Below are positions 45,635 through 63,203 of a stretch of 64,000 nucleotides of DNA, piece by piece. The DNA lies in assembly GCF_020215645.1 (NCBI RefSeq), contig NZ_CP084058.1:620001-684000 (forward strand). The letters run 5' to 3'. The stretch comes from Nonomuraea gerenzanensis (GTDB taxonomy: Bacteria > Actinomycetota > Actinomycetes > Streptosporangiales > Streptosporangiaceae). Positions within the stretch are counted from its first letter, which is position 1; each line of letters opens with the position of its first letter. Below the pieces are notes generated by a model that made no database searches, was not told where the DNA came from, and saw only the letters and a list, made by a program, of their open reading frames with translations. Both the position numbers and the translations under genes were made by a program.

Positions 45635-45708
45635 GCGGGTGTAGTTCAATGGCAGAACATCAGCTTCCCAAGCTGACAGCGCGGGTTCGATTCCCGTCAC
45701 CCGCTCCA
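45635..45708 (+). tRNA. tRNA-Gly (anticodon CCC)
   Basis: A full cloverleaf: acceptor GCGGGTG pairs with CACCCGC, the D-loop contains AGTTCAATGGCAGA, the anticodon stem TCAGC/GCTGA encloses TTCCCAA (anticodon CCC), and the T-arm has GCGGGTTCGATTCCCGT. Discriminator T is followed by encoded CCA. A -10-like TACAGT is at 45604-45609. The 3' half is the attachment site of the integrated elements and is kept intact, so the gene should still function. Confidence 0.95.
45665..45706. repeat. att direct repeat 1 (attL, inside tRNA-Gly)
   Basis: A 42-base block from the anticodon loop to the acceptor end is repeated exactly at 56374 and 57972. It defines the left boundary of the integrated element. 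Confidence 0.93.
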
Positions 45709-45715
45709 ACTGGTG

Positions 45716-45752
45716 AGGCCCAGGTAGGGACATGAATCCCGACCCGGGCCTT
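45716..45752. terminator. Stem-loop terminator between tRNA-Gly and int
   Basis: GGCCCAGGTAGGGA pairs with TCCCGACCCGGGCC apart from two mismatches, loop CATGAA. It separates the tRNA from the convergent integrase gene. Related hairpins follow the other two att copies. Confidence 0.85.
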
Positions 45753-45781
45753 GATTGTTTCCGGACTTGTTCGATCTTCGC

Positions 45782-45801
45782 GGGCCATTAACGGGCCATT
45801 A
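45782..45801. promoter_or_regulatory. Candidate arm-type integrase sites, left end
   Basis: GGGCCATTA occurs twice with an 11-base period (45782 and 45793) just downstream of the int stop. The same pair occurs next to att copies 2 and 3. One helical turn spacing and location beside att suggest integrase or excisionase arm sites. Confidence 0.55.
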
Positions 45802-45809
45802 GCTCTTGA

Positions 45810-47138
45810 TCACCCTGCTGGGACCAGCGCGCCCGCCGTGCCCTCGTCGTCGTCATCGTCCCGTGCTTCGAGTTGCCGATCGATGGCGTTAGTGATCGCC
45901 TCGTCGGCTCCTCTGACCGCGTGCTGGTAAATCATGGCCGCCCGTACGTTGTCGTGCCCCATGCGAGCCATGAGGTCCTTGAGGCCCGCGCCGGACTCGG
46001 CGGCCAGCATGTTGCCCGTGTGCCGCAGATCGTGGAAGTGGAGTCCCGGCAGGCCCATCTCCGAGACGACGTCCACCCATTGTGTGCGGGTGTTGAAGCC
46101 GCTGCGGCGTATCGGGCCGCCCTTGGCCGCTGGGAACATGAGGGCGCCCGGCTCGTCCTGGACGTAGGTGTTCATGTGCTCTTGCAGGACGGGGACGATG
46201 CTCTGTGGGATGCCGACCGTCCGGCGTCCGGCCTTGGACTTGGGAGGTCCCAGCACCAGCCCGCTTGCGGAGCGCTCGACGAAGGCGACCCGGACGCGGA
46301 CCGTACGTGCCTTGAGATCGACGTCCATCCGGCGTAGTGCGCTGACCTCACCCCAACGCAGGCTCGCGAAGGTGGCCAGCAGCACCATCGCACGGAACCT
46401 CCGGTCCTGGGTGGAGTCGGCCTTTCCATCCATGGCCATCTTCCACAGTGCACGCTCAGCCGCCGCACGCGCGTGGAAGATCTCCGGATGGGTACGCATC
46501 GCGCCGTGCCGTTGGAAGCGCAGCCGGTATGCCCCGTCCTTGATCTTGCGGACATTGCCGATCGGACGTAGCCCGACCCGGTCGGCCAGTTCGAACACCT
46601 GGGAGACAGTGAGCACGGGACGCTCTTGTGCGTGCTCGTCGCCTGCTCCGCGGATCCGGCACGGATTCTGTGGGATGACGCGGTCGTCGGCGGCGGTCAT
46701 CAGTACGGCTCGCAGCAGCCGGTACGCCTTGGCCGCCATGCTCACCGATACTCCGTTGTCGAGCAGGTCAGCCCGCCACTGCCGAACGGCCGAAGTGCTG
46801 ATCTTGGCTATCGGGACGCTGCCGAGATGTGGCGTGATGTGCTTCTTGAGCAGCCAGCGATAGAGATCGACGGTCCGGGGACGCAGGCCGGGGCGTTGGG
46901 CGATCCAAGTTTCGGCGTAGTCGCGCAGCTTGACCTTGCCGCGTTCTGGATCGTTCCATTCGCCCTTGATGATCTGTGCCTCGATGAGTGACAGCGCCCG
47001 TTCCGCGTCGGACTTGCGTTCGTAGGTGTCGGTGCCCGTACGCATCCGGCCGTCCGGTGCGGGATAGCGGATCTGGTACCGCCCGGACTCCCGCTTGCGG
47101 ATGTTGCCGAAACGGCGGTGGTTCTCCTTGTTGGCCAT
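45810..47138 (-). CDS. int: Tyrosine site-specific recombinase (integrase) with a second arm-type domain
   Basis: ATG at 47138, after GGGAGGG, gives 442 residues. Residues 8-56 are an AP2-like arm-binding domain (FGNIRKRESGRYQIRYPAPD). Residues 62-160 are the core-binding domain (LRDYAETWIAQRPG...). Residues 191-243 repeat the arm-domain pattern (IGNVRKIKDGAYRLRFQRHG, then AERALWKM). The catalytic domain has Arg261 (SLRWGE), HDLRHTGN (His369, Arg372), GHDN (His395) and the nucleophile Tyr404 (MIYQHAV). It integrates the element in tRNA-Gly. The start overlaps the xis stop by one base, so both are co-translated. The acidic tail is DDDDDEG. Confidence 0.95.
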   Translation of the reverse strand: MANKENHRRFGNIRKRESGRYQIRYPAPDGRMRTGTDTYERKSDAERALSLIEAQIIKGEWNDPERGKVKLRDYAETWIAQRPGLRPRTVDLYRWLLKKHITPHLGSVPIAKISTSAVRQWRADLLDNGVSVSMAAKAYRLLRAVLMTAADDRVIPQNPCRIRGAGDEHAQERPVLTVSQVFELADRVGLRPIGNVRKIKDGAYRLRFQRHGAMRTHPEIFHARAAAERALWKMAMDGKADSTQDRRFRAMVLLATFASLRWGEVSALRRMDVDLKARTVRVRVAFVERSASGLVLGPPKSKAGRRTVGIPQSIVPVLQEHMNTYVQDEPGALMFPAAKGGPIRRSGFNTRTQWVDVVSEMGLPGLHFHDLRHTGNMLAAESGAGLKDLMARMGHDNVRAAMIYQHAVRGADEAITNAIDRQLEARDDDDDEGTAGALVPAG

Positions 47139-47344
47139 CAGGCGGCCCTCCCGGTTGCGTCGAAGGTCGTCATGGGCGCGACGGTCCCAGCGACGACGAA
47201 GGCGATCAGTGCGGACTCTCGGATGCGGACGTGCCGCCCGACCTTGACGAACTCGATCCGGCGTTCGGCGATCAGTCGGCGGACGAAGCGAACCGAGGTG
47301 CTGAGCAGTTCGGCCGCTTCCGGGACGGTGAACAGTTGGTCCAA
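47138..47344 (-). CDS. xis: Excisionase (Xis) / HTH_17-type DNA-binding protein
   Basis: A 68-residue winged-helix MerR-like protein: FTVPEAAELLSTSVRFVRRL, then IAERRIEFVKVGRHVRIRES. This is the usual excisionase of actinomycete elements, bending DNA beside att to drive excision. Its TGA overlaps the int ATG. It lies 12 bases after rep on the same strand. Confidence 0.88.
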   Translation of the reverse strand: MDQLFTVPEAAELLSTSVRFVRRLIAERRIEFVKVGRHVRIRESALIAFVVAGTVAPMTTFDATGRAA

Positions 47345-47356
47345 GATCTCCTCCTC

Positions 47357-48919
47357 TCAGGCTGCCTGCGGAGTTGCCGAAAGTTCTTCGAGCCGCCTCA
47401 GGTGAGCGCGCCATCGCTGCCGTTCGGCGATGGACCTGAGGAGCCGGACGCCGATCGGAGCGACCTCGGGATCGCCCGGCCTGACCGGTTGCCAGACGTA
47501 GCGGTGTGGGTCGGTGGGTTCGTCGGCCTGGCCGAGCGCTTCCAGAACCCAGGTGCGGCGGTCTTGCTTGTGTTCGGCGAGCGTCTTGTTGCTCCACTTC
47601 CGGGAGACGAGGACCCGGCGACCGGCGTAGCCGAGGTGTTCGGGCTTGTGAGCCTTGGACCGGCAGCGGCCGGGAACCATCCCCGGCTTGGCGTTCTTGG
47701 GCTGAACGCCGTACCGGAGCCAGTTCGGGCAGGTCGGTGAGCACGGCTCGTAGCGAAGGGCATCGACGAAGCGGGCCGCGTGCTCCCGCTGAGCCTGACC
47801 GTCCAGGGTCTCGCCGAGGCTCTTCGTCAGGTACTTGGACAGGTACCGGATGCACTGATCGGCGTCCGGCGACCCGGCGAGCACGCCCTTGACGTCCACC
47901 TGATCGCCGAAGCGGATCACGTGCATGGGCTCGTCGCCGAGCTGGTCGAGAGCTTCGTCCCAGGTGGGCAGGACCTCGCCCGTGTCGGGGTCCACGTAGC
48001 CGTCGTTCCAGATGGGCAGGTGGTCACCCTCGAAACGGGCTTCATCGGCCTGAGGCCACCAGACCTGGTGATAGGTCGCCGCCGCGATCTGCTTCATCTC
48101 GGCGCGCGGCAGAGTGCCCCGGACGGCCATGTGCAGGTGCGGGGCGAGTCGCTTCTGAGGCTCCACCGTGGCGAAGTACTGCACGTCGTAGCCAGCGACC
48201 CGGCGAAGGTTCTGCACGAACCGGTCCACGAGCTTGGAGAAGTGCAGCGCGTCACGAGCCGCCCGAACGTAGTCGTACGTGTCCGGATCGACGGGAGCGC
48301 CATTCATGATCTTGCCGTAGCTCGGCAGGGTGAGCGTGACGAACAGAGAAGGCCGGTAGGTCTTGCCGTCCGCCCCTTCAAAGGTCCGGCCCAGGGTCGT
48401 GCTGGCCATCTTCCGCTTGGGCAGGTCAGGTGCGTCCTGGCGGCGCTTGGTCGAGCGGACCCGCTTGGAGCCCGTGCGGCCCAGCACGTTCCCGCGCATC
48501 CCGGCCTCGTTGATCTCGACGTCGAGCCCGGTGAGCACAGCGTCCAAGTCGGAGGTGTCGCCGCCGGCCTTTTCCTCCTCGTCGCGCTTGGCCTGCATGT
48601 CGGCCCGGAACTCGACGAGCCAGCGCTGCCCATCGGTCGCCTTGTCGGGCGTGATGATCGGCTCCTCATCGAGGTGCCATCCCTCCCGGCACTGCGCCAT
48701 CCGAAGCTGCCGGTTGCGCTTGGCGCACGGAGGACACTTGCTATCCAGCGGCGAGCCGCACGGGACATCGACGATCTCTGACTTGCCGGTCGTCATGTCG
48801 AGCCGCTTGAGCGCCACGGGACGGATGCAGACGCCGTGAAGCTTGGCGATCTCCTCGGCCACGTCGCGGGCGAGCGGTTGAGCCATGCGGATGGCTCGCG
48901 GAGTCTTGCGGTCGATCAA
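47357..48919 (-). CDS. Replication initiator, RepSA family
   Basis: A TTG start at 48919, with GGAGG four bases ahead and overlapping the upstream stop (TTGA), gives 520 residues; ATG at 48886 is an alternative. Residues 54-65 (CGSPLDSKCPPC) form a zinc-like motif. The rolling-circle HUH motif is RLAPHLHMAVRG (His261, His263), and the nucleophile candidates lie in YLSKYLTKS (359-367). RepSA of pSAM2 is the reference for this family. It would nick a double-strand origin after excision of the element. Confidence 0.9.
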   Translation of the reverse strand: MIDRKTPRAIRMAQPLARDVAEEIAKLHGVCIRPVALKRLDMTTGKSEIVDVPCGSPLDSKCPPCAKRNRQLRMAQCREGWHLDEEPIITPDKATDGQRWLVEFRADMQAKRDEEEKAGGDTSDLDAVLTGLDVEINEAGMRGNVLGRTGSKRVRSTKRRQDAPDLPKRKMASTTLGRTFEGADGKTYRPSLFVTLTLPSYGKIMNGAPVDPDTYDYVRAARDALHFSKLVDRFVQNLRRVAGYDVQYFATVEPQKRLAPHLHMAVRGTLPRAEMKQIAAATYHQVWWPQADEARFEGDHLPIWNDGYVDPDTGEVLPTWDEALDQLGDEPMHVIRFGDQVDVKGVLAGSPDADQCIRYLSKYLTKSLGETLDGQAQREHAARFVDALRYEPCSPTCPNWLRYGVQPKNAKPGMVPGRCRSKAHKPEHLGYAGRRVLVSRKWSNKTLAEHKQDRRTWVLEALGQADEPTDPHRYVWQPVRPGDPEVAPIGVRLLRSIAERQRWRAHLRRLEELSATPQAA

Positions 48920-49068
48920 CGAACCTCCTCTCCAACCTCGGGGAACGTGAGCGCGATCTGTCCGCACTCGGAGCACTCGACCAGGCCGCGCATCGCGTCG
49001 AGCCAGAGGACATTCAGCACGCCGCAGGAGGCGCAGCGGAGGCCGTCGAGAAAGTGAGCCAGTGTCAT
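48916..49068 (-). CDS. 50-residue zinc-ribbon protein
   Basis: ATG at 49068 overlaps the stop of the transfer ATPase (ATGA) and the TGA at 48918-48916 overlaps the rep TTG start. The product starts MTLAHFLDGLRCASCG and has a second pair in VECSECGQIALTF, giving CxxC-N18-CxxC, a compact zinc ribbon. The double coupling shows it is a translated gene between traB and rep. It may be a small DNA-binding or regulatory subunit; function unknown. Confidence 0.82.
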   Translation of the reverse strand: MTLAHFLDGLRCASCGVLNVLWLDAMRGLVECSECGQIALTFPEVGEEVR

Positions 49069-50474
49069 CGGACCTCACCGACCATCGCGCGGATGTCATC
49101 GTCGGAGACGTACGCGGCCCGGACGCGAATCGGATCAGGACTGGTCTCCAGCCGCACGTACCCGACGCCCGCTCCCCGCTCTGGACGAGGAGAGATGCGA
49201 TCGGCCAGCGCACCGCGATCTCTAGCCCCGTCACCGAGCACCATGTCCACCTGCTCCGATTCGTCGAGCCGTAGAGCGATCTTGTCCGGGAAGAGGTTGC
49301 GAATGTTCATGACCTCCTTGCGAGGGTCCTGGAGAGCCGCCAGGACGCCAACGCCGACCGCGCGTCCCTGAGTGGTCAGCGTGGCCAGAGCAGCCGAGAT
49401 GCGCTGCCTGAGCTGCCTGTCGGACTGGTAGGCGGTCAGGAAGGCCACCTCATCGACCACGACCAGAACGAACGGGTCGTCGAGAGTGGGTGTGTGTGAT
49501 CGCTGAATCCCGGCGAAGCGAGCGGCACGCTTCTGCATGACACTCACGGCCTCGTCGAGCAGGTCAGCGCAGTCAGCGGGATCAGCCGCGTACCGGCCGC
49601 CGAAGAGAGCCCTGCCGTACGACAGCTCCATCAGCTTCGGATCGAGCGCCCAGATCTCGACCAGGCCCGCATGCATGGCAGGCATGAGGCCACGAATCGC
49701 TGACCAGATGATCGAGCCCTTGCCCGCCCCCGTGGCCCCGGCGACGAGGACATGAGTCCCGTGCAGCCGGAGGAGCCACGGCGAGCCGTCCTCTTGCCTG
49801 CCGATCTCGACCGCCCCGACAGTCGGGGTATCCGGGATCGGTAGCGCTGCAATCGGCGTGGCCAGCGGATCGTGACGTGGGAAGGTCAGCACGAGCTGAC
49901 CGGCCCTGGCCACCGCGACCCGACAACTTTCCGACCCGAAGCCGTGGGACAGGTTCTCGATCCTGTCGGACCAGTCCTTGACCGCTTGGCCGTCGAGCAT
50001 GCGGACGGTGAGCCGATCGGCCCAGGAGTCGGAGGTGACCTTGACCAGCCGCGGAACGTACTCTCGTCCGCGTATGTGCCGAGCCAGCCCGGCGACGGTC
50101 ATGACCGGTTGCCAGTGCCGCCGATAGATCCAGAACCAGCGTGCGAAGGCGACCAGCCGCCAGCCGATGCACCGCGCGAACGTCGGCCTGTCGAGGATCG
50201 CCCAGGCGCCCATGGCCACGAGAGCGGGAACGACGAGCAGCAGCGCGACGCGCCAGCCGTACACGAGGCAGAGCCCAGTAGGAACGGCGATCGCCGCCAG
50301 CGCGACGGGATGCCGCCAGACCAGACGGAAGAGGCCGGCTACGAACCGGGCGATGAAGATGACCAGAGTGATGATGGCCGGGGTCTGCACCACGGCCGGT
50401 TTGAAGACCACCGCCGTGTCAGGGGTGGTCGAGACGATGCGGTGCGGCTCGTCGCCGGGCATTCTCTTGAACAT
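49065..50474 (-). CDS. FtsK/SpoIIIE-like DNA translocase (conjugative transfer protein TraB/TraSA type)
   Basis: ATG at 50474 gives 469 residues. Two to three membrane segments lie in residues 30-95 (VVQTPAIITLVIFIARFVAG, VALLLVVPALVAMGAWAIL). The ATPase core has Walker A GATGAGKGS (246-254) and Walker B FVLVVVDEVAFL (335-346), then LTTQGRAVGVGVLAALQDP. In pSAM2-like elements one such protein suffices to move double-stranded DNA between mycelia. Upstream extension to 50663 is out of character with the family. Confidence 0.92.
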   Translation of the reverse strand: MFKRMPGDEPHRIVSTTPDTAVVFKPAVVQTPAIITLVIFIARFVAGLFRLVWRHPVALAAIAVPTGLCLVYGWRVALLLVVPALVAMGAWAILDRPTFARCIGWRLVAFARWFWIYRRHWQPVMTVAGLARHIRGREYVPRLVKVTSDSWADRLTVRMLDGQAVKDWSDRIENLSHGFGSESCRVAVARAGQLVLTFPRHDPLATPIAALPIPDTPTVGAVEIGRQEDGSPWLLRLHGTHVLVAGATGAGKGSIIWSAIRGLMPAMHAGLVEIWALDPKLMELSYGRALFGGRYAADPADCADLLDEAVSVMQKRAARFAGIQRSHTPTLDDPFVLVVVDEVAFLTAYQSDRQLRQRISAALATLTTQGRAVGVGVLAALQDPRKEVMNIRNLFPDKIALRLDESEQVDMVLGDGARDRGALADRISPRPERGAGVGYVRLETSPDPIRVRAAYVSDDDIRAMVGEVR

Positions 50475-50562
50475 TAGGGTGAAGTCCTTCCATGCATGTC
50501 GCGTGTGTGCGGAAGACCGAGGGGCCGCCGGAAGTTGCCGCTTCCTGCGGCCCCGCTGAGCA

Positions 50563-50865
50563 TCAGGCCGCCTCGCCGTCGGTGGCCTTGCCTGACTCGC
50601 CGGAGTGCAGCCGCTCGCAGTCAGCCAGATAGCGAGCGGCGGCGTTGAAGATCTCGCGAGCAACGGTCAGGTCGTCGTCGGTCACCGGTCCCGAGGTCGA
50701 GACGGTCACCGAGGCGGCCGAGGTGTCGAGGTCGAAGCAGGGCCTGCCGCTCTCTCCGAGCCAGGCGCGCGCCCGCAGTTCCACCGAGCAGAAGGCGATA
50801 CTGAACCGTGAAGGCTGATCGGGACGTAGGGAGACGGTGACGTAGATGTACGGGCTGAGCGTCAT
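50563..50865 (-). CDS. Small element protein, paralogue of the next gene
   Basis: A 100-residue soluble protein: LSPYIYVTVSLRPDQPSRFS, then SVTVSTSGPVTDDDLTVARE and FNAAARYLADCERL. Its second half aligns by eye with the protein at 50862 (VTTSANDHVTLDDVEFARTL, EAAMFAGAVERM), suggesting tandem duplication. Function unknown. Upstream gene overlaps by four bases; 88 bases separate it from traB. Confidence 0.75.
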   Translation of the reverse strand: MTLSPYIYVTVSLRPDQPSRFSIAFCSVELRARAWLGESGRPCFDLDTSAASVTVSTSGPVTDDDLTVAREIFNAAARYLADCERLHSGESGKATDGEAA

Positions 50866-51140
50866 CGACCTGCCACCCCCAGCCCGTTCGGCAGGCCGTG
50901 GAACATGCGCTCCACCGCTCCGGCGAACATGGCGGCCTCTCGCGCCAGAGTCCGAGCAAACTCGACGTCGTCGAGGGTGACGTGATCGTTGGCCGACGTG
51001 GTGACGAGCACCTGCGTACCGCCGAAGATGAGCCCCAGGACCGGCGACCGCTGCGGGTACGGATGGTTCCGTGCGTCAGCGCCCTGACCGACCTTGAGCG
51101 CGATCGTGCTGACCGGACGGGCCTTCCGCCGCCCCATCAC
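50862..51140 (-). CDS. Small element protein of unknown function
   Basis: A 92-residue soluble protein: RRKARPVSTIALKVGQGADA, then VLVTTSANDHVTLDDVEFAR and MFAGAVERMFHGLPNGL. It shares a strand-helix pattern with the adjacent 100-residue protein. Overlaps both neighbours by four bases. Proteins of this size are usual between the promoter and traB in AICEs but have no named function. Confidence 0.75.
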   Translation of the reverse strand: MMGRRKARPVSTIALKVGQGADARNHPYPQRSPVLGLIFGGTQVLVTTSANDHVTLDDVEFARTLAREAAMFAGAVERMFHGLPNGLGVAGR

Positions 51141-51550
51141 GCCGCGTCCTTGGCAGCGGTCGTCGCCCTACCGGCCGGACGAGGAGCGCGCATCTCGCGC
51201 ACCTTGATCGAGTACGCCAGCCTTCCGGCCTGGTTGACGTACGGCGTTGCGGTCATGTGGTCGAACTCGACCGGCGTGAACGGCAGTCCGGCCATCGGGG
51301 CCGGGGGAACCGGCTGCACCGGGCTGAGAATCTTGACGGAGACGGTCTTCTGAGCCGCCTTGAGTGTCGGGTCGGCGTCCATGACGCTGACCTGCCAGAC
51401 GAGCTCTCCGCTCTGCTTGTCGCGGGTCTGGACGAAGCGCCCGTTGATCGAGGCGTCGAAGTCCTTGACGGGCTCGACGTCCCCCACGATGTAGCAGCCG
51501 TGCGGGAAGACCATGTCGAACGTGACGGGGATGGGACCTTGCAGTGCCAT
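51137..51550 (-). CDS. Conserved AICE protein of unknown function
   Basis: A 137-residue soluble protein: VTFDMVFPHGCYIVGDVEPV, then KDFDASINGRFVQTRDKQSG, LVWQVSVMDADPTLKAAQK. Comparable proteins (FPHGCY.VG.VEPV.DFD) accompany rep/tra genes in many actinomycete elements. It is the first gene of the minus-strand operon, directly downstream of the candidate promoter at 51607-51635. The strand-rich core could be an OB-like fold (my guess). Confidence 0.8.
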   Translation of the reverse strand: MALQGPIPVTFDMVFPHGCYIVGDVEPVKDFDASINGRFVQTRDKQSGELVWQVSVMDADPTLKAAQKTVSVKILSPVQPVPPAPMAGLPFTPVEFDHMTATPYVNQAGRLAYSIKVREMRAPRPAGRATTAAKDAA

Positions 51551-51579
51551 GAGGCTTACTCCTAGCTAGTCGTCTTGTC

Positions 51580-51646
51580 GCTAACTCGTCTTGTCGAGTT
51601 GTCATGAAGGTACCCGCAGGTCAGGGACTTGACAACACGAGTTAGC
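51580..51646 (-). promoter_or_regulatory. Transfer-operon promoter with GntR operator repeats
   Basis: On the minus strand, -35 TTGTCA (51635-51630) and -10 TACCTT (51612-51607) are 17 bases apart. A 16-base sequence GCTAACTCGTCTTGTC (51580-51595) recurs inverted at 51631-51646 with one mismatch, so one operator half covers the -35 and the other lies downstream. Similar AACTCGACTTGTCG sequence sits by the GntR start (52812-52826). Confidence 0.75.
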
Positions 51647-51759
51647 GGGATTTCTTCAAGATCTTTTATGAGGCCATGACAAATCCATCCATAAGCCATT
51701 GCGGCATAGCGGATGGATCGGTTTAAATGACGATCAACTCCACGTGATCTCCAAAGCTC

Positions 51760-52065
51760 GTGCGGGGACCATGTGGCAGTCGCGCCGATATGGGACCGTG
51801 CAAGGAGTACGAGATCTCGAAATTACGGTACGACCTCAACCACGCTCGCGACATGTCGATCAGGAGCGAGCCCGACGACGAGCCCATGGGGCTACCACCA
51901 GGCGTGCGGGGGACGCGGTGGATCGAAGTCGCCAAGAGCAAAGCACGCAATCGGCAGCTAGCCAGACACAAGCTGACCGAGAAGGAAGAGAAAGCCCTCA
52001 TGCGGAGAATCGCGCGAAGCCGGGCCTGGAAAGAGGAACAAGAACGCCGCAGAAACGGACTATGA
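51760..52065 (+). CDS. Small basic protein of unknown function
   Basis: A 101-residue frame; an ATG at 51790 (MGPCKEYEISKLRYDLNHAR) is an alternative start. The end is highly basic (KALMRRIARSRAWKEEQERR), suggesting nucleic acid binding. It faces away from the transfer operon and toward the GntR gene, ending one base before the GntR stop. Coding status is plausible, not certain. Confidence 0.5.
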   Translation: MRGPCGSRADMGPCKEYEISKLRYDLNHARDMSIRSEPDDEPMGLPPGVRGTRWIEVAKSKARNRQLARHKLTEKEEKALMRRIARSRAWKEEQERRRNGL

Positions 52066-52066
52066 G

Positions 52067-52798
52067 TTAGAGGGAGTAGGAGTCCTCTAGCTCATGGAGG
52101 TCGCCGGGTAGAACGAGGTCCACGACAAGCACGGGCCGTCCTCCTCCGTTGAAGACACTGGCCAGCACCCCGAGAACGGGCGCGTTCTTGCGGACCTCCA
52201 TGAGCTTGGCTTCGTCTGACGAAGGGTGTCGAGCGCTCAGCCGCTCGACGACGTGCTGAAGCTTGACACCCTTGCTCGCCCGAAGGTGCTCTCTGATGCC
52301 AACGGTGAGTGGCTGGGCTTCACCGAGCTGTGTCTCTTCGGCCTGATGCGCCGGGCACCACACGGTGAACAGGTCAGTCGGCCGCTCATCGTCGCGAAAG
52401 AGAACCCGACGCCGCACCACCGCGGATCCCTCCGGCACGTCCAGAAGCTTCGCGACCGCAGCGCTGGCTGCGAGCGATCCAGCCTCGATGACAGTGCAGT
52501 TCTCGTCCACCTCCACGCGGTCGAGGACGGCCCTGCCCGGACGGGGAGTCTGGTGAGCGGCGCCTGGTGGGGCGGCCTTCACGAAGGACCCCTTGCCGTG
52601 CTCCCGTTCGATGACTCCACGGAGCTGGAGAACTTGGAGGGCGCGAACGACGGTCGGCCGGCTCACCCTGAACTCGCGGACGAGTTGCGTCTCGGAGGGC
52701 AGCAGAGAGCCGGGCGGATAGGTCCCGTCCGCGATCTTCTGCCTGATCGTCTGCACGATCTGGGCGTACTTCGGGGGCGCGAACTCTTCGGACGACAT
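52067..52798 (-). CDS. GntR-family regulator (KorSA-like)
   Basis: A 243-residue HutC-type regulator. The DNA-binding domain is PPKYAQIVQTIRQKIADGTY, then LLPSETQLVREFRVSRPTVVRALQVL. The effector domain (UTRA) follows from about residue 90 (TVIEAGSLAASAAVAKLL...). In pSAM2 a GntR protein (KorSA) represses transfer and replication genes; its site here would be the AACTCGTCTTGTC repeats. ATG at 52798. Confidence 0.88.
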   Translation of the reverse strand: MSSEEFAPPKYAQIVQTIRQKIADGTYPPGSLLPSETQLVREFRVSRPTVVRALQVLQLRGVIEREHGKGSFVKAAPPGAAHQTPRPGRAVLDRVEVDENCTVIEAGSLAASAAVAKLLDVPEGSAVVRRRVLFRDDERPTDLFTVWCPAHQAEETQLGEAQPLTVGIREHLRASKGVKLQHVVERLSARHPSSDEAKLMEVRKNAPVLGVLASVFNGGGRPVLVVDLVLPGDLHELEDSYSL

Positions 52799-56171: not shown

Positions 56172-56189
56172 CCCGCTTCCCCTTCGGGC

Positions 56190-56420
56190 GGGCCGACAGC
56201 AGACGGGATGATCAGCCGGGCGAGGCGTGCGCGTTGCGCCATAAATGCCAGGTCACGGGCTGATCGCCAGGCCATTAGCGGGCCATTAGGAGAGGTGAAG
56301 AGGGGTCAACCACGGTCACTCAGGACCGGCTTCCCGCCCAGCTCAGCGCCCCAGTGGGCTGTGATCGATGCAGTTCCCAAGCTGACAGCGCGGGTTCGAT
56401 TCCCGTCACCCGCTCTCATT
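56190..56420. repeat. Right-end module, copy 1
   Basis: This non-coding block starts with GACGGGATGATCA, passes paired GGCCATTA motifs (56270 and 56281) and GGGGTCAACCACGGTCACTC, and ends in att copy 2. It is closely repeated at 57797-58017. The common block is probably the right attachment arm of this element family. Confidence 0.8.
56374..56415. repeat. att direct repeat 2
   Basis: Exact 42-base copy of the tRNA-Gly 3' half (TTCCCAAGCTGACAGCGCGG...). The bases just left (CAG) differ from the tRNA (AGC). It is the right boundary of the first element. Confidence 0.93.
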
Positions 56421-56423
56421 GTG

Positions 56424-56462
56424 AAAGCCCAGGTGGACCGATGGATTCGATGTCTGGGCTTT
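56424..56462. terminator. Stem-loop after att 2
   Basis: AAAGCCCAG pairs with CTGGGCTTT around a 21-base loop, resembling the hairpins after att 1 and att 3. It marks the left-end type sequence of a second element that has lost its integrase. Confidence 0.7.
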
Positions 56463-56610
56463 GATCTTGTCGGGGCTTGGTTTCGCTGTCGTGCCAGAGT
56501 CGTCCGAGACAGTTGATCTTGCCGTGATCGCCCGACTGGTTCGAGTGCTCGGCCGTCGTCGTCAGTCCCTGCGTCGTCGCCGGGCTTGAGCCCTTGCTTG
56601 ACGAGTTCGC

Positions 56611-57161
56611 TCAGCTGCGCAGGGCCGCAACCGCTTCGACGAGGCCGGCGCGCTCCAGAGCGTCGAGAACGTCATAGATAGTCTGTGGCGGCTGAGTGCG
56701 TGAGTCCGCGATCTGTTGCACGCAAGCCCAGACGACGCGGTCATCGAAGTCAATCTGATCAAGGACGAAGTCGTCCGGGCTTTTGGCTTCTACGCCCCAT
56801 GTGGCCAGCGTTTCGACTGGGAAGTCCCGCAGGTTCGACGTCACGATCACCTGGGCGTGCGCCTTGATGGCCGCAGCCAGCACGTGCCTGTCGTCAGGGT
56901 CTGGCAGCTTAAGACCCTCGATGATCGGTTCGTACCCTTCGACAATGCAGTCGGGGACGGCGTCAATCACCAGTTCGCGCAGCCGCTCCAGCTTGGCTGG
57001 AGCGATATCTGGCAGCTTCGCGGCGAGGTTCGCTGTACCTCATCCAGGATCGCGTGCGTCCACTTGGCCTGAACCAGGCCAGATTGCGCTAGCCGGATCA
57101 GCAGGTCCCTTTGCGTGTTGCCGAATAGGGCGTTGGCATCGTAGATCACGACAAAAGGCAT
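56611..57161 (-). pseudogene. PIN-domain toxin (VapC-like), frameshifted
   Basis: ATG at 57161 starts PFVVIYDANALFGNTQRDLL, a PIN domain with its first aspartate. At about 57040 one base appears missing; the continuing frame gives AAKLPDIAPAKLERLRELVI then LKLPDPDDRHVLAAAIKAHA and VIVTSNLRDFP, carrying the later PIN acids (PDDRHVL). Intact, it would be about 180 residues and cleave RNA. The frameshift should abolish the toxin unless sequencing error or recoding rescues it. Confidence 0.75.
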
Positions 57162-57163
57162 GA

Positions 57164-57622
57164 CTACAGCCCCAGCTCCTGGCCTAGTTCGCTCAGCTCG
57201 TCGGCCGCCCCTCTGCGCTTAACGGAGTCCTGACGCTTGTACTCCATGAGGTCGTCATGCCGGATGCGTCGATGTCTGCCGACCAGCCGGTACGGGATGG
57301 CGCCGGCCTCCAATAGGCCGATGAGATACGGACGCGAGACATTTAGCATGGCCGCTGCTTGCTGTGTCGTCAGCTCCGCGTGCGACGGCATCACCTGCAC
57401 GCCTCGCCCCTCGGCGACCTGAGCAAGGATGAAAGCCAGCATCGACACGGCTTCGCGCGGGAGGACCAAGGCGTCGTCGCCAACCACCTCTGCCGCAACC
57501 TCGATGGTCTTTTCCTCCGGATGTCGCATCAGGTACTCCTTGATGCGACGTAGGGCTCGCTCTGACTGCTCCTGGTCAAGGCTGCCAGGTTTGATCGAGC
57601 TTGCGAGTTGCGTTCCTGTCAT
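57164..57622 (-). CDS. HTH antitoxin (excisionase-type DNA-binding domain)
   Basis: A 152-residue protein. The C-terminal HTH_17 domain is LTTQQAAAMLNVSRPYLIGL, then LEAGAIPYRLVGRHRRIRHD. The N-terminal helix-rich part (ALRRIKEYLMRHPEEKTIEV) likely binds the toxin. Two bases separate its stop from the PIN start. Such HTH-PIN pairs form toxin-antitoxin systems in actinomycetes. Start supported by GGAAGGA and the promoter at 57650. Confidence 0.85.
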   Translation of the reverse strand: MTGTQLASSIKPGSLDQEQSERALRRIKEYLMRHPEEKTIEVAAEVVGDDALVLPREAVSMLAFILAQVAEGRGVQVMPSHAELTTQQAAAMLNVSRPYLIGLLEAGAIPYRLVGRHRRIRHDDLMEYKRQDSVKRRGAADELSELGQELGL

Positions 57623-57649
57623 GTGTCTATCCTTCCCCGCTGTAAGCGA

Positions 57650-57678
57650 AGTATCCGCAACAAGCGCAGCAAACGCAA
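57650..57678 (-). promoter_or_regulatory. Promoter of the antitoxin-toxin operon
   Basis: Minus-strand -35 TTGCGT (57678-57673) and -10 GATACT (57655-57650) are 17 bases apart, 28 bases ahead of ATG. The region has TTGCG direct repeats that could bind the antitoxin. Confidence 0.6.
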
Positions 57679-57711
57679 GCGGCTGGCTGCCGATCTCGGC
57701 CTACCTGAGCT

Positions 57712-57789
57712 GGCGCTGTCGCCAACGGATCTGACATCCGGGTGGGCGATGCCCGTGAGCTGCAGACCGCAATCGTGGCCATTGGCGAC
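57712..57789 (+). pseudogene. Fragment of a second inositol-monophosphatase gene
   Basis: 26 codons read GAVANGSDIRVGDARELQTA, then IVAIGD. They match residues of the intact IMPase at 54860-54940 (GAVANGSAIQVSDARELQSA) with few changes. A stop follows at once. It shows that the second element once carried the same cargo. Confidence 0.85.
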
Positions 57790-57796
57790 CCATAGT

Positions 57797-58017
57797 GGGG
57801 ACGGGATGATCAAGCGGACAGGGTGCGGGCGTCGCGCAAGAGATCCTGGATCGCGGGCTGATCGCCCGGCCATTAGCGGGCTATTAAGAGGGGTGACGAG
57901 GGGTCAACCACGGTCACTCAGGACCGGTCTCCCGCCCAGCTCAGCACCTCAGTGGGCTGTGATCGATGCAGTTCCCAAGCTGACAGCGCGGGTTCGATTC
58001 CCGTCACCCGCTCTCAG
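57797..58017. repeat. Right-end module, copy 2
   Basis: Parallels 56190-56420: GACGGGATGATCA, CGGGCTGATCGCC, GGCCATTA (57868) with GGGCTATTA 10 bases on, GGGGTCAACCACGGTCACTC, and GTGGGCTGTGATCGATGCAG, then att 3. Confidence 0.8.
57972..58013. repeat. att direct repeat 3
   Basis: Exact 42-base copy of the tRNA-Gly 3' half; right boundary of the second element remnant and left boundary of the third. Confidence 0.93.
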
Positions 58018-58106: not shown

Positions 58107-58984
58107 TCATCCGGCGGGGACCAGCAGGCCGGGCGGGTCGTCGTCGTTCTTGTCGCGTGCCCGTTCGCGCCCGATCAGGTGCTTGTCGATGGCTTCGGTG
58201 ATCAGCTTGTCGGCTCCCCGGACGGCGTGCTGATAGATCATCGCGGCGCGGACGTTGTCGTGTCCCATGCGTGCCATGAGGTGCTTGAGGCCCGCGCCCG
58301 AGTCCGCTGCGATCATGTTTCCCGTGTGACGGAGATCATGGAAGTGCAGCCCCGGAACACCGATCGCTTTCACCGCCTCGACCCATCCCGAGAGCTTGTT
58401 GAATCCGCTCCGCGCATTGGACCGCCCTTGACCCCGGTGAAGATCAGCGCTCCCGCGTCAGGCTTCACGTAGAGCCGCAGGTGTTCTTTCAGGGCCGGGA
58501 TGATGGCCTGCGGAATGCCGACGATGCGCTTGCCCGCCTTGGACTTGGGCGGACCAAGGACCAACTCGCCAGTGGAGCGTTCCACATAAGCCAGGCGAAC
58601 GCGGACCGTACCCGCGTCGAGGTCGAGGTCCGCTCGGGTCAGCGGGGTGATCTCGCCCCAACGCAGGCTCGCGAAGGTGGTCAGGAGCACGAAGGCCCTG
58701 TATCGCCGATCGTGCGTGCTGTCGGCCTGCCCGGTGTCGATCATCCGCCACAGCGCCCGCTCGGCTTCTGCTCGCGTCGGGAAGACCTCCGGGTAAGTCC
58801 GCATCTCACCGTGCCGCTGGAAGCGGATGCGGTGTCCTTCGCCTCTCTTGAGTGCCCGGATGCTGCCCACTGGGCGACGCCCCATCTTGTCCGCCGGCTC
58901 GAAGACCTGCCCTACGGAGAGGACCGGTCGTTCCTCCGCGTGCTCGTCGCCGGCCCCGCGGATTCGGCACGGGTTGCGGAAGAT
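58107..58984 (-). pseudogene. Integrase remnant of a third element, truncated and frameshifted
   Basis: The sequence begins with FRNPCRIRGAGDEHAEERPV, equivalent to residue 157 onward of the intact integrase; the arm and core-binding domains upstream are replaced by unrelated sequence. It retains the inserted arm-like domain (VGSIRALKRGEGHRIRFQRH), Arg (SLRWGE), then near 58405 shifts frame into SGWVEAVKAIGVPGLHFHDL, then RHTGNM and MIYQHAV. Two lesions make it inactive. Highly similar to int at 45810. Confidence 0.9.
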
Positions 58985-59135
58985 GATCCCAGGACGCGGA
59001 ACACACCGAAGCTCCCGGTCGGCGATCTGCTGCCTGGCAGGCCGTCGGCTGGGAGCTTCGCTGTGGTCTTTTACCGGGCTGGGCTGGCGTTCTCCGCCAG
59101 AACCCGGTGAGGAGCTGAATGCCCTACGGGTCACC

Positions 59136-59474
59136 TCAGCAGCTGTACCACCCGGCGTAGGCGTCCCATTTGCCGTTCTTGGTGAATTCTGCGCTCTTGC
59201 CCTTGTTGATTGTGGTGCACTTCGAGTCGGGCATAAAGGCCCCCCTCCAGTCCACCTTGAGCTTCTTCTTGCTGGCGCAGTTGTTCGTGATCTTCACCCA
59301 GTGGTGATAGTACTTTCCGAAGGCGGTCTCCTCGTAGAAGGTCCTCCCATGCTGGACATTGACGCAGGAGGGCGCGGCGTTGGCCGCCGGAGCGGCGGCG
59401 GCCGGTGTGGCGACAGTCATGGTGAGCACAGCTGCCGCCACAGCTGCGGCTCGGATGAAGGCACGGGAATCCAT
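59136..59474 (-). CDS. Small secreted cysteine-containing protein
   Basis: ATG at 59474, after AAGGAG, gives 112 residues. The signal peptide (RAFIRAAAVAAAVLTMTVAT then PAAAAPAANA) is clear. The mature part of about 79 residues (APSCVNVQHGRTFYEETAFG...) has four cysteines for two disulfides, and aromatic-rich strands (KYYHHWVKITNNC, WDAYAGWYSC). The start APSC and compact size recall secreted actinomycete inhibitors such as tendamistat, but spacing differs, so this is only a hint. Confidence 0.75.
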   Translation of the reverse strand: MDSRAFIRAAAVAAAVLTMTVATPAAAAPAANAAPSCVNVQHGRTFYEETAFGKYYHHWVKITNNCASKKKLKVDWRGAFMPDSKCTTINKGKSAEFTKNGKWDAYAGWYSC

Positions 59475-59592
59475 CGTTCTCCTTAGGGATATCGCGGCGA
59501 TTTTGGATGCTGCCGGTTGGGCAGCAAGAAACGCCCGCCACATGCGGGTTGTTGGCACGGCCAACGCTAGCGAGGGGCGGTATATCGCGGGT

Positions 59593-59688
59593 ATGGCAGT
59601 GATTCGGGCAAGGCCAGGCCGGATACCCGCTTCGTCGACCTCGACCACGCTCAACCGCTACACGCACGCGTCGCCCGAGGGTCTGTAG
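59593..59688 (+). pseudogene. C-terminal stub of another tyrosine recombinase
   Basis: The plus-strand end STSTTLNRYTHASPEGL then stop matches the conserved terminal motif around the catalytic tyrosine of phage-type integrases (SISTTL.RY.H). Nothing upstream supports the rest of the enzyme. It points to an older, unrelated integration event. Confidence 0.5.
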
Positions 59689-60164
59689 TGCCGAGTCAAC
59701 AATCGCCTCTGGAGTGGATCTCCAGCTCAGGGAGGCGGAAGTGCTCAAGATCGGCGGGTCCTAATGGGGCCGAGGCGGGCGGGGTACGCGCAGTGCGTTT
59801 CAATCCCAGGTCGGAGAGCTGATACTCGTGCCAGATGCGTGCCAGAACGAACGGCAGGTCAAGGCCATTCAGGGTAGAGCGCTGGGCTTGCGTAGCGGCT
59901 GCACGTTGCCCCACGAATCCTTGGTTGCCGACATGCCCTCATCCGGGGCTGGACCGGGCGAGCCGATGATGACGTGCTGCCAAACAGCGAACCGCTCATC
60001 GGGCGATGGTGGCTCGTGCACGTCTCAAGGGCGGCCCAATCCGAGCGGAGAATCATCGTACTTCCCCGCTTGAGCTTCGAGGCTGCGGCCAACAATTGAC
60101 GGGAGATCGCCTCAGGCCGAATAACCCGTGGCCCATATCCGCAAGCAGGTGCAGACTGTGCCGC
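59689..60164. other. 476-base stretch without a supported gene
   Basis: No frame has family character or a good start here. A 15-base string TGCCAGATGCGTGCC at 59829 recurs at 63298, the only notable feature. It lies between the recombinase stub and the disrupted gene at 60165. Confidence 0.6.
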
Positions 60165-60390
60165 ATGCCGCCAGCCGACCTCAGCGAGACGGAGTACCTG
60201 CGTCACATCGAACTGCTCGCCCGCGATGTCATAGACGCCGCACACGAAGAAGGATGGCTGACCTACGACCGCGACGCGACACCCGCCACCTCCCTCCACC
60301 GGGCCGTGAACGAGTTGGCACGTCAGATCCGCCACTACCACTTCAGCGGAGACGGCTGCCTGGAAGACGATCCCCCGCCCATGCGGCTAG

Positions 60391-62113
60391 CCCCGTTTTC
60401 CGCACGTGGAGGTATGTGAAGATCGCCGGGTTGCTGTGGTGATCGTTGTCGCGGTATGACCTGGCTGGTGAGACAGCGTGCGCAGTGGGGCCAGGCCAGT
60501 GTCGAGAAGATGCTCGGGGCATTACCGGTGGTGGCCGGTTTCTGCTCGCGGTTGCGGGTCCGGGAGCTGGTGGATGCGGCCTGCCCGGTGCGCGATATCG
60601 CGGAGCTGACTCACGGGCAGGTGATCGAGGTGCTGGTGGCCAACCGGCTGACCTCGCCCGCCCCGCTGGTGCACGTGCAGGACTGGGCGCGCGCCTGGGC
60701 GGTGGGTGAGACGTTCGGGACCGATCCCGAACTGCTCAACGATGACCGGATCGGCCGCGCGCTGGATGCCATCGCCCCGCATCTGGACCAGCTGACCGGG
60801 TCGGTCGGGCTGGCCGCGATCGAGGCGTTCGGCCTGGACGTGGCCCGCCTGCACTGGGACATGACCTCGATCTCGCTGCACGGCGACTACGAGCAGGCCG
60901 AGCCCGGCTTCGCGACACCGCGTTTTGGTCACCCCAAGGACCGGCGGCCGGACCTGAAGCAGATCCAGGCCGGGATCGCGGTCAGCGCCGATGGCGCGAT
61001 CCCGGTCTTGCACCGCGCCTACGACGGCGCGGCCGGTGAGGTGGGGCAGGTCATCGGCGCCATGCAGGGCCTGCAGAAGCTGGCCGGCCCGCAACGCATG
61101 CTCATGATCGGCGATTCCAAGCTGATCTCGTATGCCAATCTGGCGGCGATGACCGCCGCTGGGGTCGCCTTCATCGCGCCGGCCTCCAAGCAGTACGTCG
61201 GCGTCGCGGCCCTGGCCGGTCAGAAGATCGACGACGCGGCCCGGGTGGACTACGTCGCCGCCCGGGACGAGCACAAGAGCGCCGACCGGCGCGGCCTCTG
61301 GCACGTGCGCGAGGACGACACCATGACACTGGCCGGGCCGCGCAAGAAGGACCCGATCCTGACCCTGCGGCGCATCTTCGTGCACTCCTCCGCCCGCGCC
61401 CAGGCCGCCGCCACCGCCCGGGCCAAGAAACTCGAGCGGGCCCGCGACGATCTGGCCCGGCTGGAACGCGGCCTGGGCAGCCGCCACTACCCCACCGAGC
61501 AGGCCGTCGCCGACCGCCTCGCCGCGATCGGCCGCGACCGCCGGGTCAGCACCTACCTGACCGCGCGGACCGGCACCGATCCCACCACCGGCAAACCCAC
61601 CCTGGCCTGGCACTTCGACCAGAACGCGATCGACGCCGAAGCCGCCACCGACGGCTGGTACGCCCTGCTCACCAACCTGCCCGCCGAGGCCGCCGACGCC
61701 GGACAGGTGCTACGCCATTACAAAGGCCAGGAAGCCGTCGAACGCCGCTACCAGGCCTTCAAGGGGCCGCTGGCCGTCACCAGCCTGTATTTGAAGAACA
61801 ACCGCCGCATCCACGCCCTGATCACCGTCATCTGCCTGGCCCTGCTCATCTTCTGCCTGATCGAGCGCCAGGCCCGCCAAGCCCTCGCCGACCGCGGCGA
61901 AACCAAGGTCAACGGCCTGTACGCCGGACGGCCCGCCGTCCCCACCGGCAAGCTCATCCTCGACGCCCTGGCCGGCATCCGGCTCATCCCGGGCACCGGC
62001 CAGTCACCCCCGACCATCCCGCAACCCACCACCCTCCAACTCGATCTCCTGGACCTTCTCGACATCGATCCACGAGACCTCCGCTGAAGATCACTCACCT
62101 GCGGAAAACGGGG
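60391..62113. mobile_element. IS element, 1,723 bp, IS1634-like
   Basis: Terminal inverted repeats CCCCGTTTTCCGCA (60391-60404) and complement (62100-62113) match over 14 bases and 17 of 18. Target duplication is CTAG (60387-60390 and 62114-62117). One transposase gene fills it. Perfect ends and an intact gene suggest it can still move. Confidence 0.93.
60456..62087 (+). CDS. Transposase, IS1634 family (IS4-like DDE)
   Basis: A 543-residue DDE transposase. The N-terminal part (LRVRELVDAACPVRDIAELT, HGQVIEVLVANRL) is the DUF4277-like DNA-binding domain. LDVARLHWDMTSISLHGDYE supplies the first Asp, RMLMIGDSKLISYANLAAM the second and YKGQEAVERRYQAFKGPLAV the Glu of the Y(2)R(3)E(6)K-type motif. 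Intact, hence probably functional. Confidence 0.93.
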   Translation: MTWLVRQRAQWGQASVEKMLGALPVVAGFCSRLRVRELVDAACPVRDIAELTHGQVIEVLVANRLTSPAPLVHVQDWARAWAVGETFGTDPELLNDDRIGRALDAIAPHLDQLTGSVGLAAIEAFGLDVARLHWDMTSISLHGDYEQAEPGFATPRFGHPKDRRPDLKQIQAGIAVSADGAIPVLHRAYDGAAGEVGQVIGAMQGLQKLAGPQRMLMIGDSKLISYANLAAMTAAGVAFIAPASKQYVGVAALAGQKIDDAARVDYVAARDEHKSADRRGLWHVREDDTMTLAGPRKKDPILTLRRIFVHSSARAQAAATARAKKLERARDDLARLERGLGSRHYPTEQAVADRLAAIGRDRRVSTYLTARTGTDPTTGKPTLAWHFDQNAIDAEAATDGWYALLTNLPAEAADAGQVLRHYKGQEAVERRYQAFKGPLAVTSLYLKNNRRIHALITVICLALLIFCLIERQARQALADRGETKVNGLYAGRPAVPTGKLILDALAGIRLIPGTGQSPPTIPQPTTLQLDLLDLLDIDPRDLR

Positions 62114-62488
62114 CTAGCCGGGATCGTCCTCCTCCACCCGAAGGCGATCCCTTCGGACATGGAGCTGACCTACGAAGAAATCTGCACCCGACTGGGGATA
62201 CCTCCGGCCGTGGACGGCTGGGCTGTCTGGAACACCTGGGCCAATAACCAGCAACCCATCTCCATTGTCCTGGCAGACACCGATGCAACCGAAGGCATAC
62301 TCGTCAACTGGGCTCGTGGTATCGAGGTTCACCCATCCGCACCACTGCCAGCCCAAGTCGTCATGGTTCGGCAAGGATGGCTCACCCCTATGACGCTCTC
62401 TCCCTTCAGCATCCGAAAGCTCGGCATCACACGGCCTCCCTATTGGACGCCCAGTGCCTCAGGCGGGGACACTCCAGATCCGGGATGA

Positions 62489-62640
62489 TCGCCGCTTGGC
62501 GGAAGCGGCACATGAGTGGCTGAGGCAGCTGACGTGTAGGCGGCGCGCGATACCCCAGGTCGCGGGCAGTAGCAGCGAGCGGTCAATGACGGTCACTCAT
62601 GACCGCTCTCAGCCGGAGATCAACGCTCCCTACGAGCCAG
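62489..62640. other. Degraded right-end-like DNA, no gene
   Basis: Contains CGGGATGATCGCC (62482), CCAGGTCGCGGGC, and GGTCAATGACGGTCACTCAT then GACCGCTCTC, all in the same order as the right-end modules at 56190 and 57797, but much diverged. No coding potential seen. Confidence 0.5.
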
Positions 62641-62683
62641 AATCCGAAGCTGATAATGCAGGTTGCCTATTTCACGCCACCTT
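62641..62683. repeat. Decayed att-like site
   Basis: AATCCGAAGCTGATAATGCA then GGTTGCCTATTTCACGCCAC aligns with the 42-base att repeat (TTCCCAAGCTGACAGCGCGG...) at roughly 60 percent, in the right position after decayed right-end module sequence. It may be the eroded right boundary of the third element. Confidence 0.45.
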
Positions 62684-63203
62684 GCCTGGATCGTTCAGCA
62701 TTCAGCCAGTATTGAAAGGATGAGCTCGTTGACTTGACCACAGTGGGGTCATGCGGGGGCTCGGGCCAGATCTGCAAGAAGTAGTGATCACCTATTTCGA
62801 CTGCGACTTCTTCATCCATGCCTCTGATGTGATATCGCAAACGATACGTTCCGGGACCGGCGGGCAGCGGAGGAAGACGGTGCGTCCTCCCTCCTCCCCA
62901 CTCCTGCAGCGAAAGCTGACCGGATGGGGACTCGTAGCTGATCTCGACGATGTCTTCGTATCCGTCGAGGTCGGCCCCCGGATCCCGATCGGCGACAGCC
63001 ACCGTGAACTCCACCGGCCCCCACTGAGGGCCCACGATCAGGAGGGCACTGCCTTTCTCCACTCGGATGACCCCCACAGGTGGACTCGGCACGTCCTCGA
63101 ATCCGCCCGCGTCGCATCCCTCATCCACGAGATAGGTCTGGCTGTAATCCACCTCCACAGCCAATTGCTTTACATGGACGACAGGAGTTTCGTCTGTGAT
63201 CAT
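62667..63203 (-). CDS. Hypothetical protein
   Basis: A 178-residue soluble protein: VVHVKQLAVEVDYSQTYLVD, then GSALLIVGPQWGPVEFTVAV, GPGTYRLRYHIRGMDEEVAV and HYFLQIWPEPPHDPTVVKST. The strand-rich pattern is common in unnamed actinobacterial proteins sometimes found near toxin-immunity loci. Its 3' end overlaps the decayed att site. Function unknown. Confidence 0.7.
   Translation of the reverse strand: MITDETPVVHVKQLAVEVDYSQTYLVDEGCDAGGFEDVPSPPVGVIRVEKGSALLIVGPQWGPVEFTVAVADRDPGADLDGYEDIVEISYESPSGQLSLQEWGGGRTHRLPPLPAGPGTYRLRYHIRGMDEEVAVEIGDHYFLQIWPEPPHDPTVVKSTSSSFQYWLNAERSRQGGVK

Follow-up and report, generated by a model that had tools for sequence, protein, structure and literature searches.

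The 64,000-nucleotide stretch of Nonomuraea gerenzanensis DNA analyzed here (bases 620001-684000 of a 12.01-Mb contig; hereafter, the window) carries a tRNA-Gly(CCC) gene behind which mobile units lie in tandem. We suggest that the locus is an integron-like array anchored at this tRNA gene, and consider it somewhat probable that the integrases (Int) of actinomycete integrative and conjugative elements (AICEs) move integrase-free cassettes by way of class-coded arms, often as composites with an AICE. In sequence terms, this suggestion is based on the array itself, on arms and cores shared by its units, on a tie between left-arm class and Int clade, on cassettes that have spread between species and on cores that decay outward. 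An earlier note on this DNA had seen one element plus remnants, a description that is too weak for this locus.

Results

Repeats of the tRNA-Gly(CCC) 3' end

45635..45708, + strand: tRNA-Gly(CCC) gene, the sole tRNA in the window by ARAGORN
begins 45665, + strand: core att1, 42-base exact repeat, inside tRNA-Gly(CCC) from the first base of the anticodon loop
56374..56415, + strand: core att2, exact 42-base repeat
57972..58013, + strand: core att3, exact 42-base repeat
62571..62664, + strand: att4, decayed right arm and core (right-arm profile, E 1e-6; core partly legible behind the arm)

All three exact copies of the 42-base tRNA 3' segment that the earlier note had listed (45665, 56374 and 57972) were found, and the decayed copy that it placed near 62641 lies in the right-arm match at 62571-62664. 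In the 12.07-Mb genome of the organism, the first 40 bases of the 42-mer occur, with up to 3 mismatches, only three times, all at this locus. Across the 54 Nonomuraea arrays described below, the 40-base core (up to 11 mismatches) gave 196 matches on the tRNA strand and none either for the reversed pattern or on the opposite strand; therefore, a chance origin of the repeats is excluded. The repeats are also present in NZ_LT559118.1, a N. gerenzanensis record identical to the window over 29,149 shared bases; as this record may be the same assembly as the window contig, it provides no independent check.

NZ_LT559118.1 is an 11.85-Mb chromosome that the plasmid collection lists as 'plasmid I', a label by which surveys of plasmids could be misled. 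Among the best 10 of 48 plasmid records, it was the sole match over more than 80% of the query, and the best other record among the matches listed had 49% covered at 67.6%. The phage collection gave one record, with 5% covered.

Arrays at the same site throughout Nonomuraea

The survey comprised 54 Nonomuraea genomes, one per species and including that of the window. The 40-base core (up to 3 mismatches, any contig) is present in 54 of 54, with at least four copies in 24 and a maximum of eight; the reversed control gave none. Stretches of about 2 to 70 kb behind the tRNA were taken from the 53 other genomes, and all 54 were cut at cores with up to 11 mismatches. A second core follows the tRNA in 45 of the 54 stretches, and in these 45 genomes 142 intervals of 658 to 30,505 bp were delimited; draft contigs shorten some arrays, and strongly decayed cores escape, so that some intervals are composite. 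Among the 142 units, 68, which fall into 40 types, are shorter than 2.6 kb and have no int, xis, rep or tra match.

Nine of the 54 stretches (G011, G018, G019, G022, G033, G038, G040, G042 and G052) have no second core at up to 11 mismatches. Arm matches lie further out in G011, G033, G038 and G040, and weak ones only in G052 and G042; G018, G019 and G022 are short contig ends, and G018 and G042 carry further cores on other contigs. The earlier note had looked to relatives for empty, single and multiple occupancy of the site. Multiple occupancy is widespread, with at least two cores in 47 of the 54 genomes, while a truly empty site was demonstrated in none of the 54 stretches.

Of the 17 units in which rep and tra are intact, 15 directly follow the tRNA and two come second. 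The 45 first units comprise these 15 AICEs, two units with Int only and 28 without an intact Int. Exact cores become rarer with distance from the tRNA: by rank 1 to 8, they make up 53/53, 33/45, 25/34, 12/25, 8/18, 1/10, 1/7 and 1/3 of the cores (G018, whose tRNA differs, is omitted). This pattern fits the entry of new units at the tRNA, and the claim of repeated capture at one tRNA-Gly(CCC) site, with decayed units further out, is borne out by the array. Relatives of Int were detected at E 1e-40 in 39 of the 54 genomes. The one-contig genome G034, which has two small units, gave a single match at this threshold, a piece spanning residues 310-442 (62%).

Outside the genus, the core (up to 2 mismatches) is present in 120 of 189 sampled genomes of the Streptosporangiaceae, with at least two copies in 82, at least four in 42 and a maximum of 13, and in five arrays from the family (G253, G215, G189, G067 and G061) the arms are the same and short spacings are numerous. 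Genomes from outside the family, in a sample of 394 drawn across the class, carry 0 to 4 copies (up to 3 mismatches).

Some sites depart from this arrangement. In the arrays of G050 (near 12203), G010 (near 24339) and G026 (near 4996), the core behind a good right arm breaks off after its first 20 bases and gives way to unrelated sequence. A right arm with a Gly core also lies 0.6-1.5 kb behind other tRNA genes, namely tRNA-Val(TAC) in G010 (L136 near 3877, core exact) and tRNA-Leu(GAG) in G039 (L137 near 3924, exact) and G032 (L140, minus strand, near 4611, 3 mismatches). The misplaced core of G010 is located between tRNA-Val and a copy of the tRNA-Val 3' end (4 mismatches in 40); at the two tRNA-Leu genes, the search for such a 3' copy gave no more than a 22-base match with 3 mismatches.

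Left-arm classes follow integrase clades

A right arm of ~115 bp precedes the distal core in 137 of 142 units and is absent in G001_3, G008_4, G020_3, G032_4 and G051_3. Its profile derives from 72 of these units, whose matches are guaranteed by construction; on the opposite strand, it found two marginal matches. The arm begins with a paired repeat that falls into five classes, GGCCATTA (A), GTGCCATTA (B), GTGCAATTA (C), GTGCCCGTT (D) and GTGCCAGAT (E); at 4 mismatches, the class is unclear in 30 of 142 units. Between the paired repeat and the core, for instance at 56300-56340 in the window, repeats of the type TCAACCACGG/TCACTCACGG, spaced by ~10 bp, were recognized by eye; they are perhaps candidate Xis sites.

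An intact Int, defined as one frame with more than 380 aligned residues, is present in 21 units, and all 21 have a left arm with a paired repeat of the class type. On the tree of these Ints, the left-arm class changes four times, which is the minimum; shuffled classes gave a mean of 12.1, and 0 of 200 shuffles were as low (in this tree, class C is weakly supported and class E has one member). Left and right arm agree in class in 18 of the 21 units. The three that differ, G020_1, G053_1 and G050_2, suggest AICEs fused with a neighboring cassette, a possible route by which AICEs would gain cargo. Among the 40 small types, 23 have no left-arm match, eight match only in the terminator part and nine reach the repeat region.

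Units could also be shuffled between arrays by homologous recombination across the 40-bp cores and ~115-bp arms instead of by an integrase. Arms and cores are long and similar enough for it, and two of the 13 families of small units described below have members of different arm class. Yet the class is constant in the other 11 families (members with a class call), Int clades co-vary with left-arm classes, and the anticodon loop is where the repeat begins in every one of the 54 arrays, a weak point as the search was constructed in this way. We regard this explanation as very improbable.

In the window, the left arm of Int and the right arms at att2 and att3 are all of class A. Circles joining att1 with att2 (10.7 kb) and att1 with att3 (12.3 kb) are therefore the predicted products of the intact class-A Int. 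Excision between att2 and att3 is predicted to be poor because only a worn repeat of another class follows att2.

Small units recur between species

Clustering gave 13 families of small integrase-free units, each present in at least two genomes. Likeness within families is higher for the unit than for the flank at dcd in 47 of 62 pairs, and by at least 7 points in 21 (the pairs are not independent). Units of 855-1547 bp are 98-100% alike between species with flanks at 84-91%, and the likeness ends at the cores. The 895-bp DUF433/DUF5615 family, with eight members, illustrates the range: the units of G005 and G007 are 98.7% alike with flanks at 84.5%, and those of G017 and G020 only 78.8% with flanks at 94.4%. 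In G007, G020, G046 and G053, this unit and the preceding 800 bp are 98.9-99.4% alike across the core while the following units differ; in G005 and G047, it has unrelated neighbors.

Cargo was assessed from 72 reading frames in the 40 types, picked by length and third-position GC (G027_1 gave none); the Pfam scan covered 43 of the 72 frames and 31 of the 40 types. At least 13 of the 40 types have toxin-antitoxin-like genes: DUF433/DUF5615 (1), PIN (5, with G037_2 counted by its likeness to a G004_1 frame, without Pfam scan), Gp49 with or without a helix-turn-helix (5) and PemK (2). No enrichment is claimed from these counts. Other types have Uma2, SUKH, Imm21, Shedu, GNAT, DUF6188, DUF5655, DUF418, NmrA-like or mycothiol transferase domains, or no match. 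Of the 72 frames, 43 are on the minus strand and 29 on the plus strand.

The second unit of the window is one of these small units.

56416..57971, no strand: unit 2, toxin-antitoxin cassette without integrase, 1598 bp from one core to the next; further copies in G017, G029 and G035
56491..56512, + strand: worn left-arm repeat, read as class E by eye (left-arm profile 1-112, E 6e-17)
56611..57161, - strand: PIN-domain gene, in two frames in the window copy, open in the G029 and G035 copies (reading frames)
57164..57622, - strand: helix-turn-helix protein, likely the antitoxin (Pfam, homologue search)
57712..57789, + strand: fragment 83% identical to the AICE inositol monophosphatase gene at 54852-54929 (window self-comparison)
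57857..57971, + strand: right arm of unit 2, class A (right-arm profile)

Copies of unit 2 in three other Nonomuraea species, taken to be N. fuscirosea (G029), N. cypriaca (G035) and N. turkmeniaca (G017), are 93.5-98.5% identical to the window copy. The window and G029 copies are 98.5% alike with the dcd flank at 90.9%, and those of G017 and G035 99.0% with the flank at 86.4%. Chromosomal sequence of ~3-4 kb that surrounds the tRNA and extends upstream of it, including ~0.5 kb of the array, is 85.0% (window/G029) and 88.5% (G017/G035) alike, and a conserved 1.6-kb gene stretch nearby is 93%, 92% and 91% alike between the window genome (G000) and G029, G035 and G017, respectively. In G017 and G035, the 800 bp on each side of unit 2 are unrelated, apart from the tRNA end itself; in G000 and G029, the preceding units share 371 bp at 85.7%. 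The helix-turn-helix gene also occurs in N. longispora (95%), two Acrocarpospora species (91%) and two Nocardia genomes (68-70%), and in A. pleiomorpha the gene pair lies inside a 1678-bp unit of another such array, with homology that stops before the arm. The earlier note had regarded the 1.6-kb interval as a remnant. The comparison did not support this: like other small units, it is a discrete integrase-free unit that recurs in other species, and it looks mobile rather than dead.

The view behind that label is ordinary accretion and decay, by which AICEs integrate, lose genes and persist as passively inherited or dragged remnants, with nothing specific maintaining the cassettes. Such accretion has been documented in Streptomyces, as described in part of PMC9513070; the match at 57712..57789 suggests that unit 2 is partly AICE-derived, 17 of the 40 small types retain some AICE left end, and cores decay outward. 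Nevertheless, decay alone fits poorly with units of 855-1547 bp that are nearly identical across species inside more diverged flanks and end at the cores, and with right arms that are kept in almost every unit. We find it unlikely that this process accounts for the arrays.

The AICE and the outer part of the window array

45665..56373, no strand: unit 1, AICE of pSAM2 type, 10,709 bp core to core
45783..45802, + strand: left-arm paired repeat, class A, GGCCATTAACGGGCCATTAG (sequence comparison of arms)
45810..47138, - strand: int, tyrosine recombinase, open over its full length (Pfam)
47138..47344, - strand: xis-like helix-turn-helix excisionase (Pfam, TIGR01764)
47357..48919, - strand: RepSA-type replication initiator (PF20199, E 1e-106)
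49065..50474, - strand: tra, FtsK/SpoIIIE-type transfer protein (PF01580)
52067..52798, - strand: GntR/UTRA regulator (Pfam)
53566..54465, + strand: DUF5919 protein (Pfam)
54462..55286, + strand: inositol monophosphatase family protein (Pfam)
55414..55977, - strand: SUKH-family protein, cargo (Pfam)
56259..56373, + strand: right arm of unit 1, class A (right-arm profile)
58107..59134, - strand: broken integrase, in pieces on two frames, forming the first part of unit 3 (reading frames, Int search)
59132..59874, no strand: segment matching the right end of unit G020_1 at 98.4% identity (cross-genome comparison)
59818..59875, + strand: class-E right-arm remnant, no legible core behind it (right-arm profile, E 0.003)
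60384..62120, + strand: IS1634-family element with 25-bp inverted repeats (self-comparison, NCBIfam)
63639..64000, - strand: fragment of another PIN cassette that runs off the window, 89.5-90.0% identical to units G004_1 and G037_2 (cross-genome comparison)

With genes for Int, Xis, a RepSA-type initiator and an FtsK/SpoIIIE-type transfer protein, all intact, and with att repeats at a tRNA 3' end, unit 1 is by its gene content an ordinary pSAM2-type AICE, although its RepSA-type and transfer proteins score below the NCBIfam equivalog cut-offs for RepSA and TraB despite their Pfam matches. The earlier note had thus recognized the complete element correctly and only overstated its length, given as 10.75 kb. 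Int is not an integron integrase (IntI): against the NCBIfam model, it scores 20.7 bits with a cut-off of 265.

The third interval had been described as one remnant with a dead integrase and an insertion sequence (IS). The split integrase and the IS1634-family IS are there; however, the class-E arm at 59818-59875 and the match of 59132-59874 to the right end of G020_1 indicate more than one unit. The integrase pieces are fused to the segment with this arm, and the IS belongs to the unit after it, which extends to the decayed core near 62641. The IS sits in a cargo stretch (60128-60400 and 62121-62488) that it apparently interrupts, and whose 5' part, by eye, resembles sequence behind a decayed core in G004. 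The array seems to go on beyond 62690.

Discussion

In the model that we favor, the stretch of tRNA-Gly(CCC) that runs from the anticodon loop to the 3' end would be the recombination core shared by two kinds of units, namely pSAM2-type AICEs (with Int, Xis, RepSA and an FtsK-type transfer protein) and integrase-free cassettes of ~0.7-2.6 kb with a right arm and a core. Tyrosine integrases often recombine at the anticodon loop. Because the repeat begins at the first base of this 7-base loop, Int presumably exchanges strands there. Int would bind the paired arm repeats, whose class follows its clade. New units would insert beside the tRNA and displace older ones outward, where their cores decay. 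Cassettes would be moved by the Int and Xis of an AICE, mainly by excision together with the AICE as a composite circle (here, att1 with att3). This circle would transfer and integrate in a new host, and the AICE may then leave alone. The exchange point, arm binding, excision and the composite route are what we infer from the arrangement of repeats, arms and genes.

Several observations weigh against this model. The 23 small types without a left-arm match lack an arm that single excision by a lambda-like integrase would presumably require. With 28 of 45 first units lacking an intact Int, the helper must have left or acted from elsewhere. Likeness of the unit does not exceed that of the flank in 15 of the 62 within-family pairs, and two of the 13 families change arm class. 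For unit 2, the toxin (PIN) gene is broken across two frames in the window copy; the G000/G017 and G000/G035 copies (93.7% and 93.5%) are only slightly above the 91-92% of the nearby gene stretch, so that these figures are uninformative on their own; and no core was found near the gene pair in A. phusangensis (20 kb) or in the Nocardia stretches. Class matching of adjacent units as a sign of composite travel was likewise negative: where a unit with intact Int is followed by another unit, the class of the latter agrees with that of Int in 4 of 13 cases (p = 0.43, chance level; the 13 are those successors of the 21 intact-Int units that have a class call and no intact Int of their own), which speaks against a simple train of matched units.

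Some of these points could reflect mobilization in trans, with single cassettes moving as free circles through the action of an AICE Int on right arm and core alone, as integron cassettes do. The chance-level agreement between unit class and adjoining Int class argues that present neighbors are not the carriers, 17 small units without an intact Int stand first behind the tRNA, and both the 895-bp unit (G005, G047) and the 1.6-kb unit (G017, G035) are found among unrelated neighbors. By contrast, the many types without a left-arm match are hard to reconcile with single excision, the four genomes that share the junction of the 895-bp unit with its preceding unit point to joint movement, and loss of the AICE after composite transfer would look identical. 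Trans mobilization thus appears a minor, rather doubtful contender, and we retain composite excision with an AICE as the probable main route.

The elements of this model have counterparts in known systems. Like pSAM2-type AICEs, unit 1 has int, xis, RepSA, an FtsK-type tra gene, a GntR regulator and a tRNA 3'-end integration site; unlike them, it is followed by a train of integrase-free units. Several elements between direct repeats of one tRNA end are also known from Streptomyces tRNA-Arg accretion and from tandem Frankia AICEs, which excise singly and jointly (PMC9513070, PMC3218068). The parts of these sources considered here describe one to three elements or a conserved remnant, and no ~1-kb integrase-free units recurring across species. 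In the portion of PMC9033027 used here, pSAM2 Int and Xis act in trans to excise cassettes between attL and attR; those cassettes, however, are man-made and have both arms. Tandem islands behind one RNA gene, 15 of them without an integration module, occur at ssrA in Dehalococcoides, but there the recombinase is a serine recombinase and the cargo rdhA genes, and, in the sections of PMC3146451 drawn on, cis-mobilizability is suggested for the islands and not shown.

Cis-mobilizable elements (CIMEs), as defined in the part of PMC5704250 consulted, likewise lack integration and transfer genes, are flanked by att cores and adjoin an AICE. By that definition, CIMEs, which derive from integrative and conjugative elements by loss, keep attL and attR. 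Unit 2 has an AICE gene fragment and a left end, although a worn one, whereas 23 of 40 small types have no AICE left end and eight only a partial left-arm match; 137 of 142 units retain cores and right arm, and the small units are brief and found repeatedly. A pattern that would fit movement in cis is confined to the 895-bp unit, in four genomes.

The locus is, in our reading, a form of accretion that resembles an integron in its workings but is not one. As integrons are generally understood, the differences are that here the core is a tRNA end with paired-repeat arms (direct repeats resembling arm sites) and the helper a conjugative element. The likeness to integrons and to clusters of attC sites lacking integrases (CALINs) lies in ~1-kb cassettes with one site each and in an array that may outlive its integrase, as set out in part of PMC11389934.

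Accretion, CIMEs and tandem AICEs are already known. As far as our literature search shows, a large set of ~1-kb integrase-free units that recur across species, and arm classes tied to integrase clades, appear to be new; this search, with most subscription journals outside its reach, found no paper on such arrays in Nonomuraea or the Streptosporangiaceae. In the literature examined, the spread of integrase-free neighbors is largely conjecture. Here, small units can be traced through many species, and sites and integrases come in matching classes, which makes the question directly testable. The arrays also hint at how AICEs acquire cargo, and at where to seek toxin-antitoxin and defense genes that element finders keyed to integrases would miss. 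More broadly, and only as a tentative proposal about which we have more doubt than confidence, we speculate that the Streptosporangiaceae run an integron-like gene-capture platform on a tRNA gene, in which ~1-kb integrase-free cassettes, many of them toxin-antitoxin- or defense-like and each with one class-coded site, would be moved by any AICE integrase that reads that code, with a family-wide pool of cassettes and transient helpers.

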